DNA from: a virus
DNA length: 34,907 nucleotides
IMG/VR virus record: IMGVR_UViG_3300005833_000085
Coordinates: 1-34,907 of that record
Reading direction: 5' to 3' (one strand)
Part shown: positions 7,798 to 34,755 of the stretch, piece after piece
How the letters are laid out: every line of letters starts with the position of its first letter
How positions within the stretch are numbered: the stretch's first letter is position 1
Translations under genes and position numbers: made by a program
The notes under the pieces: model-generated
Database searches by the model: none
What the model was told of the DNA's origin: nothing
Seen by the model: the letters and a program-made list of their open reading frames with translations, nothing else

Positions 7798-8928
7798 ATG
7801 CGTTGGGAAGATGAACGTTGGGTGAAGGTATACACTCGCGATACCCCAAGTTGGTTGTCTCTCTCGTTCGAGGCCCAGTCTCTGCTCCTGCTCCTGTTTC
7901 GAAAGGTGGATCGAGCCGGACTCTTGCCACTTGGTCCACTCGGCCGGCGAGGCGTTGCCGTGGTAATCGGCCACGGTCCCCGTTGGGCTCAACTTGAATC
8001 AGCTCTCGATGAGCTGATCGCGTCCGGAACGGTCGCCATCCGGGAAACGGTCCTGGTCGTCCCGAACTTTCTTGAGGCGCAAGAGACTCCCGCTTCCGGC
8101 GCGCAGCGCGCGAGAGAGTGCCGGGCCCGAGCAAGAGATGTGTGTAACGCTGAATCACGAAACGTTACTATCACAGAACGAAACGTTACTCAAGAGTCAC
8201 AAAACGTGACGGAACCGTCACGCAGTGTAACGTCTCGTAACGTCTTGCAACGTCTCGTAACCCCTAGACGAGACGAGACGAGAGTAGACGAGAGTAGACG
8301 AGATGAAGAAACCTTCGATGCGTCACAAAACGTTACACCGGAGAAGCCGAAGAAAAACGGCACCGACCCTCGCTTCGCCCCGTTGCGGCTAGCCTGGGAA
8401 CAGACCTTCGCCCAGGTCACTCGAGAGCCCTATCGATGGCAAGGGCCGAAGGATGCGAAAGCCGTCCACTCCCTCATCGCCATCGAGGTCGATGAGTTCC
8501 GGGCACGGGCAGACCGCGGACTGAGAGCCCAGGGATTCGCCCACTGCTCCACCGTCGCCATGCTCGCGAGCAAATGGAATGAGCTCGCGGGACAACAAAC
8601 CCCACAGCGCAACAACGGCAACGGGAGAGCGAAGGATCCATCTGGACCGCACTTCATCCCGCCTGCCCCCGTCGCTCCCGCCTCTGGGCTCCCAGAGTGG
8701 GATGCTATCCTCGCTCACTACGCTGAGGTGGGGCCAGGCACTCGTTACTACCTGGGTAAGGAGGTGGTGCCGTCAATCGATAAGGGCACTCTGCGTCTCA
8801 CCGTTCCCGATCGGTTTCGAGCAAACTACCTGAGACGACACCTAGCCGACATCACGGCACTGTGCAAAATGCCGGTGGAAATAGCCGTCATCGACAACTC
8901 ACCCCTCGATGTGGCCACGGCGCCATAA
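7798..8928 (+). CDS. Phage replication initiation protein with C-terminal DnaA domain I-like segment
   Basis: The 376-residue protein starts MRWEDERWVKVYTRDTPSWL. Residues 1-95 resemble the N-terminal domain of lambda O-type initiators (a winged-helix-like fold ending LVVPNFLEAQE). Residues 120-180 are low-complexity (repeated NVT and RRDE) because the DNA there carries repeats. Residues 195-265 form a second conserved block. Residues 298-368 (TLRLTVPDRFRANYLRRHL core) resemble DnaA domain I, which in DnaA contacts the replicative helicase. Inference: it binds its internal repeats and recruits the host helicase. No phage helicase or loader was seen. Confidence 0.8.
   Translation: MRWEDERWVKVYTRDTPSWLSLSFEAQSLLLLLFRKVDRAGLLPLGPLGRRGVAVVIGHGPRWAQLESALDELIASGTVAIRETVLVVPNFLEAQETPASGAQRARECRARARDVCNAESRNVTITERNVTQESQNVTEPSRSVTSRNVLQRLVTPRRDETRVDESRRDEETFDASQNVTPEKPKKNGTDPRFAPLRLAWEQTFAQVTREPYRWQGPKDAKAVHSLIAIEVDEFRARADRGLRAQGFAHCSTVAMLASKWNELAGQQTPQRNNGNGRAKDPSGPHFIPPAPVAPASGLPEWDAILAHYAEVGPGTRYYLGKEVVPSIDKGTLRLTVPDRFRANYLRRHLADITALCKMPVEIAVIDNSPLDVATAP
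8144..8340 (+). repeat. Iteron cluster inside the replication gene: candidate origin
   Basis: CGAAACGTTACT occurs exactly at 8158-8169 and 8179-8190, 21 bases apart. AAAACGTGAC (8201-8210) and AAAACGTTAC (8327-8336) are related. Four 10-base units of GTAACGTCTC type begin at 8227, 8237, 8247 and 8257 with exact 10-base spacing. Then comes an AGACGAG purine-rich run with GAGTAGACGA twice (from 8282). Direct repeats at helical spacing inside the initiator gene match the lambda ori layout. Confidence 0.7.
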
Positions 8929-32507: not shown

Positions 32508-33566
32508 TCACCCCTCCTCGCCGGGTTCACGTCCCGGCTCGTCATCGTCCGGTGGGCCGGAATTGTCCTCTACAGGGACTCGTCGCCATGTGCTCAGGTA
32601 CTCCGTCACGGCGAGGATCTCTCGGTCACCCCACTGTGTCGAAGGCTTGCCGTCGGCGCAATTGGCGCAGGCATCTGCCCAGGCATCGATGAAGTCGTCT
32701 CCATGATTCGCCTTCGCCTCTGCTCTGATCTGTGCCACCCGGGCGTTGTGAGCGGTTGCGTCGGCGGCGTTCTCCTTGGCGGATCCGAGCTTGTCTTTCG
32801 CGGCGAGCTTCGCCTTGACCTGTGAGGTTGTGGTCGCGATTGCGGGCACGTCGTCTGTTGGGATCTCGATGACAGGTGTTGACGGCCCGAACTCGGCGCG
32901 AGCGTCTTCGTCGAGTGCATCTGCGACCTCTACGGAAAGCGGCAGATACTTGCAGAGGCGGCGCACCACGGTCTTTCGGGCCATCTCGTCATAATCGGAT
33001 ACCCACGGACCCTCGCCGGAAGCACGCGAGCGCGAACGGATGGCATCGATCTGCGCCTTGGTCATGACCTCCGATTGAGTGCCGCCGTCCTTCAGCTTCG
33101 CCACGGCGTAGACGGCGACTGGCGGGCCTGGATTCTCAGACCAATCCGGTTCATGTTCCAAAACCGGGGCGAGTCCATAGCGGCAGACGAAACGATCCTT
33201 CGAATGCACGACGTGAGCTTCCAAGCTCTCGATCTTTCCGGACCTGCGGGCGAGAGAGATCAGCCCTCGATATCCTACGATCAGTTGGCACGTGTCCTTG
33301 TAGGGGACGAGATAGGCGTCGCCGAGAGGCCCGCCCGGTTCGAGGCCAAGTTGCGCTGCTTGCATGACGGAGTTGAGTACGGAAACCGGGGTGCAAAGCA
33401 GCAGCTTGGGTGTCCGTGAGCAGGCGACGATCGCGACCCTCACGAGGCGGTCGGCGCTCAGATGCTTTGGGATCACGTCCTGGAACTTCGATTTCGACTT
33501 TTCGAGTAGGTCGCGAAGGGTTGCGATTGCGGTGGGCTTCTTTGCAACGATCTGCGTCTCTGACAT
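32508..33566 (-). CDS. recT: RecT-type single-strand annealing protein
   Basis: The 352-residue protein has the RecT core: LSADRLVRVAIVACSRTPKL, NSVMQAAQLGLEPGGPLGDA, YLVPYKDTCQLIVGYRGLIS and GPWVSDYDEMARKTVVRRLC. RecT anneals complementary single DNA strands and works with an exonuclease. Residues after about 240 are an extra, variable tail ending in Asp/Pro/Glu. It starts three bases after the exonuclease gene with AAAAGGAG upstream. This pair gives phage recombination. Confidence 0.92.
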   Translation of the reverse strand: MSETQIVAKKPTAIATLRDLLEKSKSKFQDVIPKHLSADRLVRVAIVACSRTPKLLLCTPVSVLNSVMQAAQLGLEPGGPLGDAYLVPYKDTCQLIVGYRGLISLARRSGKIESLEAHVVHSKDRFVCRYGLAPVLEHEPDWSENPGPPVAVYAVAKLKDGGTQSEVMTKAQIDAIRSRSRASGEGPWVSDYDEMARKTVVRRLCKYLPLSVEVADALDEDARAEFGPSTPVIEIPTDDVPAIATTTSQVKAKLAAKDKLGSAKENAADATAHNARVAQIRAEAKANHGDDFIDAWADACANCADGKPSTQWGDREILAVTEYLSTWRRVPVEDNSGPPDDDEPGREPGEEG

Positions 33567-33569
33567 GGT

Positions 33570-34568
33570 TCACTTCTCCTTTTGGGTGACGAACTTGAAG
33601 GGTCTCGCTCCGGGCGTTGTGGTGGTGTACCTCTCGATGATTTCCTGTCGATCGCTTCCGGAACGTTCGTCGAGCAAGTGCTTTGCGACAGCTTCCCAGG
33701 AGACCTTGATGCTGTCCTTGTTCTGTCGCCACGTGCAGATCCCCTCGATTCCGCCCGCGTCGGCGATCAGGGCCTTGAGGGCGTTTTCGTGCAGCGCCTT
33801 GGATTGTTCCGCCTCGGCAAGCCTGACCTTGGCGTTGCGCAGCAGCTCGGCCGCATACTCTGCCTCTTCCGTTGCTGGCAACATCGGCCGCACATCGCGC
33901 GGGAAGCGCCGCTTCAGATAATCGGCATATTGCTCCGACCCGTCGACCGGCGGCGGGATTCCGGTCATGATGTGATCGACCCAAAACCGTTCGCAGATCT
34001 CCAGGATTTGCCCTTCGAGCTCAAGATCTCTAGGCACTCGGTATTCGCGATCGTCTTGCCCACCGATCAGCACTACAAGATCCGTCTCAGACACATCTAC
34101 TACGGCCATTTCTGCGGCCACCTGGATCAGATAGTGCTCGGGAATCTGATCCGTACCTGGTTCGCCCCAGTTATCTTCTTGCCGCAGTCCCGCCGTTTTG
34201 ATCTGGAGATTGCGAAAGGGTCTAGGAAGACGCTTATGATAGACGAGCCGATCGGGCGTGGCGATCAACTGAAAGCGCGGAGACACATTCCGCACGAGGG
34301 TGCCGTCAATGCTGCCCGGAATGGTCCGCGGATGGCGCACCACGATCTTCTCTGCCGCATGTTGATGGGCGTAGTACTGTGCGATCGGCTCTTCGAGTAG
34401 ATCACCCCACCGCGAGGCCTTGTTGCCCTCGAACGGATCGACGAGGCCAAGTTTTTGCGCGAACACATCGATCGGTTTCACATATGGATTCAATCCGACC
34501 ACGGCGGGGGCCTCTGAGGCCGTGATACCGAGCTTCCTGATTGCGAGTTGCTTGTCACTTAGTGGCAT
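33570..34568 (-). CDS. YqaJ-type viral exonuclease
   Basis: ATG at 34568 (AGGTGG upstream) gives 332 residues; a longer frame from 34694 overlaps the zinc gene. It has GITASEAPAVVGLNPY (residues 14-29), RWGDLLEEPIAQYY with acidic residues 59-60, ATPDRLV with D106, and LQIKTAG (Q122-x-K124), then NWGEPGTDQIPEHYLIQVAA. This is the lambda-exonuclease-like family that resects DNA for RecT. The metal-ligand Glu of E-x-K is Gln here. The C-terminal half carries an extra helical region. Confidence 0.85.
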   Translation of the reverse strand: MPLSDKQLAIRKLGITASEAPAVVGLNPYVKPIDVFAQKLGLVDPFEGNKASRWGDLLEEPIAQYYAHQHAAEKIVVRHPRTIPGSIDGTLVRNVSPRFQLIATPDRLVYHKRLPRPFRNLQIKTAGLRQEDNWGEPGTDQIPEHYLIQVAAEMAVVDVSETDLVVLIGGQDDREYRVPRDLELEGQILEICERFWVDHIMTGIPPPVDGSEQYADYLKRRFPRDVRPMLPATEEAEYAAELLRNAKVRLAEAEQSKALHENALKALIADAGGIEGICTWRQNKDSIKVSWEAVAKHLLDERSGSDRQEIIERYTTTTPGARPFKFVTQKEK

Positions 34569-34755
34569 AGTCCACCTTCCTATGATGCTCGGGAACCCAG
34601 TCTTGGTGCGGACACCACGGGTGATGGTTCTGCGGCAATCTTGGTCGGATTGCCGCGCCGCATTGTGGACAGTCGTCACAGCGACACCCGCCATTGGTTC
34701 TCATTCCGCCCTTGTTTTTGGCGTACAGACAACTATTATCTCCGCAGTCTGGCAT
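34555..34755 (-). CDS. Cys-rich small zinc-binding protein
   Basis: ATG at 34755 has AAAGGAG at good spacing. The 66 residues have CGDNSC, CRCDDCPQCG and a WCPHQDW motif, six or more Cys plus His, suggesting one or two zinc sites. It overlaps the exonuclease gene by 14 bases and opens this leftward group. Unknown role. Confidence 0.65.
   Translation of the reverse strand: MPDCGDNSCLYAKNKGGMRTNGGCRCDDCPQCGAAIRPRLPQNHHPWCPHQDWVPEHHRKVDYATK

Follow-up and report, generated by a model that had tools for sequence, protein, structure and literature searches.

A helically phased GTNAC array inside a phage initiator gene as a probable origin of replication

Are the short repeats crowded between positions 8144 and 8340 of the IMG/VR virus record IMGVR_UViG_3300005833_000085, inside the coding sequence of an O-like replication initiator, a functional DNA element or the trace of a repetitive peptide? 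The whole stretch analysed (positions 1 to 34,907 of the record, 34,907 nucleotides), which comes from a soil-type phage, is referred to below as the window. A preliminary description of its sequence had proposed a replication origin placed within the initiator coding sequence in the manner of lambda O, and the location is borne out by an open reading frame (ORF) at 7798–8928 whose relatives match initiator families. Our analysis leads to the same view, namely that segment 8144–8340 is in all probability the phage replication origin, situated where the phage's own initiator gene encodes the linker.

Repeats of the window and their arrangement

The elements that carry the argument are the following.

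8144..8261, no strand assigned: helically phased GTNAC array with sites at 8144, 8164, 8185, 8196, 8206, 8217, 8227, 8237 and 8257, and degenerate sites at 8154 and 8247
8265..8309, no strand assigned: purine-rich pentamer tract, reading TAGAC GAGAC GAGAC GAGAG TAGAC GAGAG TAGAC GAGAT GAAGA
8322..8336, no strand assigned: GTNAC pair GTCACAAAACGTTAC, sites 8322 and 8332 at 10 bp spacing, flanking the far side of the pentamer tract
7798..8928, plus strand: O-like replication initiator ORF of 376 amino acids, containing the array; 34 viral loci have a homologous N-terminus, and relatives match PHROG initiation families

The exact repeat named in the preliminary description, CGAAACGTTACT, occurs at 8158–8169 and again at 8179–8190. 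The four units spaced by 10 bases are also present, as GTAACGTCTC at 8227 (exact), GTAACGTCTT at 8237 and GCAACGTCTC at 8247 (one change each) and GTAACCCCTA at 8257, which is degenerate with three changes; they do not form a separate type of repeat, since the 12-mer and the 10-mer both contain the near-palindromic core GTNAC (its own reverse complement) and thus make up a single array. Two of the 20-bp gaps in this array are filled by the degenerate sites at 8154 and 8247. For AAACGTTAC, three matches were found against 0.12 expected. The window holds 94 GTNAC sites in total, and when a chain is defined as sites following one another at 10, 11, 20 or 21 bp, the longest comprises nine sites in the array, two in the rest of the window and no more than four in any of 400 dinucleotide shuffles. 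The array starts at base 347 of the 1131 bases of the initiator gene and, as in origins of the lambda O type, lies within the coding sequence between the parts for the DNA-binding and C-terminal domains.

The purine-biased run that had been noticed next to these repeats corresponds to the tract at 8265–8309, built of 5-mers of the form [TG]AGA[CG]. Pentamers stand just 3' of the array in most relatives too, for example TAGCC, GTGCC and GTACC where the window has TAGAC, GAGAC and GAGAG. Identity at lags of 5, 10, 15 and 20 is higher than in any of 500 recoded and 500 permuted sets; lags 4, 6, 7 and 12 show no such excess. The tract is a candidate melting or single-strand recognition element.

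Conservation of the DNA pattern in relatives and other phages

To separate DNA-level from protein-level constraint, every GTNAC in the linker was listed for the window and 30 relatives (31 distinct sequences in all). The distances between sites cluster at 10, 20/21, 30–32, 40–42 and 50–52 bp, with a best period of 10.25 bp (vector length R 0.515; for a 3-bp period R is 0.054), and 24 of the 31 sequences contain two or more sites that are followed 10 or 11 bp downstream by another. At a distance of exactly 10 bp there are 117 pairs, compared with a mean of 6.7 (maximum 17) after synonymous recoding of the same proteins and 20.1 (maximum 34) after permuting each linker's own codons. Taken by itself, the window has a number of sites partnered at 10, 11, 20 or 21 bp that was reached in none of 5000 recoded sequences and in 0.24% of permuted ones. 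GTNAC occurs 77 and 57 times in the two frames that do not encode Val-Thr (VT), where recoding predicts 15.2 and 7.7. The earlier suggestion that the NVT and RRDE peptide repeats are by-products of a constraint on DNA is supported. Repeated at 10-bp steps, GTNAC falls into one frame after the next (GTN AC, xGT NAC, xxG TNA C) and so yields VTxxHxxSxxVT. This peptide, SLAVP and RRDE all result from DNA repeats of 10 and 5 bp running through every frame, and five-residue repeats such as SLAVP and RRDET from the fact that 15 nucleotides equal three pentamers.

The core and its 10.25-bp phase persist in proteins only 25–43% identical to that of the window. A comparison with relatives might have found the protein repeat kept with other codons and the DNA repeats lost; the outcome was the opposite: in these sequences the frame and the encoded peptide vary, whereas the motif in the DNA persists with its helical spacing. 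At gene positions 379–545 of one relative (L036) there are three tandem 66-bp modules, with four GTNAC sites apiece spaced by 10 bp, which suggests growth of that array through module duplication.

The preliminary description regarded the type with 10-base helical spacing as seemingly distinctive; in a wider survey the spacing proved not to be peculiar to this phage but common to many initiator families. Four GTNAC sites spaced by 10 bp were sought in a pattern scan, which returned at least 80 loci, and a 12-bp spacing served as control, the content of the matches being compared and not their number. Among the matches listed, 53 of 80 loci with 10-bp spacing lie within ORFs of at least 130 amino acids, their most frequent PHROG matches being to replication-initiation, primosomal and DnaD-like families; the listed matches of the 12-bp control mostly reflect a GNVTG peptide repeat and belong to tail-fibre and mixed families, a few initiators among them. 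Runs of 10 and 11 bp (e.g., 10,10,11,10) are found in coliphages Tritos and Evi and in Aeromonas phage pAEv1818, all picked by protein homology only and not by the pattern, and also in Pseudomonas phage phi1, a near-identical relative of one pattern match. In families phrog_3729, 1408, 2509, 1032 and 16167 and the DnaD-like 10469 there are members with 10/11-bp GTNAC arrays, as a rule located in the linker. The array thus appears widespread across initiator families, although it is not universal. In Tritos and Evi (L282 and L283), a second array with steps of 10,10,11 bp occupies gene positions 129–193, in the region encoding the N-terminal domain. In phi1, the array-bearing, initiator-like ORF of 335 amino acids (L281, 701–1705) is unannotated, the one overlapping annotation being a short hypothetical protein.

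The initiator protein and the case for an origin

The domains of the protein, as delimited in an AlphaFold2 model built with 32 sequences, are given below.

7846..8160, plus strand: N-terminal winged helix, predicted DNA-binding domain, residues ~17–121, with block means mostly 74–97
8368..8586, plus strand: middle helical segment, residues ~191–263
8680..8904, plus strand: C-terminal KH-like domain resembling DnaA domain I and DciA (AlphaFold2, Foldseek and a weak DnaA_N match)

The full-length protein has no direct Pfam or PHROG match, O families included, and its full-length model gave weak Foldseek matches only. A protein search of the phage collection with this protein and its close relatives as queries gave no match, and bacterial and archaeal genomes contained two relatives only, both in metagenome-assembled genomes placed no deeper than phylum or class. 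The loci sharing the N-terminus were found by alignment search, and some of them match known families: phrog_16167 at 3e-28, the O-like phrog_18020 at 1e-15 (L015), DnaT at 2e-4 (L003) and, weakly, Phage_rep_org_N. By its sequence relationships, the gene that houses the array belongs among phage replication initiators. The N-terminal fold, predicted with confidence and with element order H-H-E-H-H-E-E-H, is a winged helix as in initiators of the lambda O type; its PDB matches are weak, and many of the weak Foldseek matches are winged-helix regulators of the CRP/FNR group. The linker encoded by the array is predicted with low confidence, as is usual for disorder. In two relatives (L004 and L028, the latter judged by sequence) the winged helix is followed by a T5orf172/MUG113-type (GIY-YIG-like) domain.

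The C-terminal domain is modelled as a-b-b-a-b, with block means of 86–92 over residues 321–360. Foldseek ranks DnaA domain I (4tps) first and second and 2e0g fifth, and a model from the single sequence alone still places DnaA domain I at the top in PDB, with DciA listed too; VIA-align Z is 6.9 to 4tps and 6.5 to DciA. Set against the KH-like fold a-a-b-b-a-b of DnaA domain I, the model resembles 4tps and 2e0g but also many KH proteins, its second helix not being resolved. The match to DnaA_N is weak (E 0.078, or E 0.0034 as a single match within the window), a PDB sequence search with the C-terminus returned unrelated matches only, and a search for relatives of the domain found none. Escherichia coli DnaA domain I touches DnaB via Glu21 and Phe46 (PMC5448010). 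Glu21 has no clear counterpart in the window protein. The PDRF motif (F340), however, we take to stand at the place of PNRF (Phe46) in E. coli DnaA. The KH-like domain is a probable helicase recruiter and a plausible hook for host DnaB, a lead given how common KH folds are.

In the mechanism that we propose, the N-terminal winged helix would bind GTNAC sites aligned on one helix face by steps of 10–11 bp, and the initiator would assemble on the array into a compact nucleoprotein complex comparable to that of lambda O on its iterons. This complex would strain and open the adjoining pentamer tract at 8265–8309, a tract that may in addition be recognised in single-stranded form, after which the C-terminal domain would bring in the host DnaB helicase.

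Several observations weigh against this account. The GC skew of the window, which had been put forward as a check, follows gene direction, with no sharp switch separable from it and no decisive mark of an origin. The tract is not AT-rich (GC 0.52, against 0.59 for the gene), so that its role as a melting element is something we infer, and the local GC minimum of 0.40 sits over the array and not over the tract. Relative L017 has no array, L014 has three sites with none at 10-bp spacing, and Cy-LDV1 and Mwe-JY25 are likewise without an array. The hook for DnaB is uncertain because the match to DnaA domain I (PF11638) scores 13.1 bits, below the Pfam cut-off of 24.6, and because the KH fold is common. 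Counting duplicates, roughly half of the relative loci examined had a DnaB-like match within the flanking sequence retrieved, and none was found in the window; the missing helicase gene is weak evidence, as the contig may be a fragment.

The array could instead be an operator through which the initiator or another regulator controls the initiator gene. Near-palindromic, helically phased sites would suit a regulator as well, and the N-terminal domain finds weak structural matches among CRP/FNR winged helices, yet the array begins deep within the gene, has a conserved pentamer tract after it and turns up in several further initiator families, as origins would. We consider an operator in place of an origin unlikely, and the two roles are not mutually exclusive.

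It is far harder to credit that a tolerant, disordered linker let the repeats expand through neutral slippage. A look of duplication is indeed present in the pentamer tract and in the 66-bp modules of L036; slippage would not, however, maintain a single motif, and here one core and one phase are kept across divergent proteins and other families. Hardly credible at all is a functional linker peptide (NVT, HxxSxxVT, RRDE) whose selection left the DNA repeats behind. Val-Thr and five-residue repeats do recur, and an in-frame VT always encodes GTNAC, but out-of-frame sites and 10-bp phasing far exceed the synonymous expectations, a period of 3 is absent, the linker is predicted as if disordered, and the peptide-driven case, GNVTG in the 12-bp control, looks unlike the array.

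With the segment read as an origin, GTNAC every 10–11 bp followed by a 5-bp tract within an initiator ORF becomes a rule for finding candidate origins, applicable to many uncultured and cultured phages, including those of Escherichia and Pseudomonas, and the odd peptide repeats of phage replication proteins are explained as shadows of a DNA code. More tentatively, several phage initiator families may share a two-part origin code, in which phased GTNAC sites are bound by different winged-helix initiators and followed by a strand-specific, DnaA-trio-like single-strand element of 5 nucleotides, both periods forcing the coding sequence through three frames. Such a code is apparently undescribed so far; the literature searched covered lambda, Stx phages and plasmid iterons and did not describe the GTNAC arrangement, though absence there is no proof.

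Elsewhere in the window, RecT and YqaJ recombination genes lie on the minus strand at 32508–34694, and the contig end (61–870) encodes a protein with a LacI-type sugar-binding domain, no helix-turn-helix match and a host-like appearance.

Comparison with known origins

In lambda and the Stx phages 933W and P27, the origin lies in the middle of gene O and combines iterons with an AT-rich region (PMC7466680, PMC5043065), in lambda four inverted-repeat iterons of ~19 bp and a 40-bp A+T-rich region (PMC5043065). The window resembles them in the location in the middle of the initiator gene, in repeated sites followed by a distinct tract and in an initiator leading, as proposed for the window, to DnaB loading. 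Inverted-repeat iterons of ~19 bp were not found in the array; unlike lambda, it has a 5-bp core (GTNAC) at steps of 10–11 bp, and its tract is a pentamer repeat that is not AT-rich. Lambda brings in DnaB by means of P, whereas no P-like gene was noticed in the window.

At iteron plasmid origins (P1, pSC101, R6K, RK2), the spacing of the initiator sites follows the helical repeat of B-DNA (PMC5043065); these origins share with the window the helical phasing of multiple sites, but here the array lies inside the initiator coding sequence and has a 5-bp palindromic core. Members of the PHROG initiation families carry arrays of this kind, although the window protein shows no direct match to any of these families. 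The basal unwinding system of Bacillus subtilis (DnaA-trios/DnaD recognition element) places a short-period tract, read as single strand, beside double-strand initiator sites (PMC10201434); its trios are of 3 nucleotides and the pentamers of 5, and the likeness is one of analogy. The array of the window is best read as a lambda-O-like origin that differs in the length of its sites, in their one-turn spacing and in a pentamer tract that is not AT-rich.
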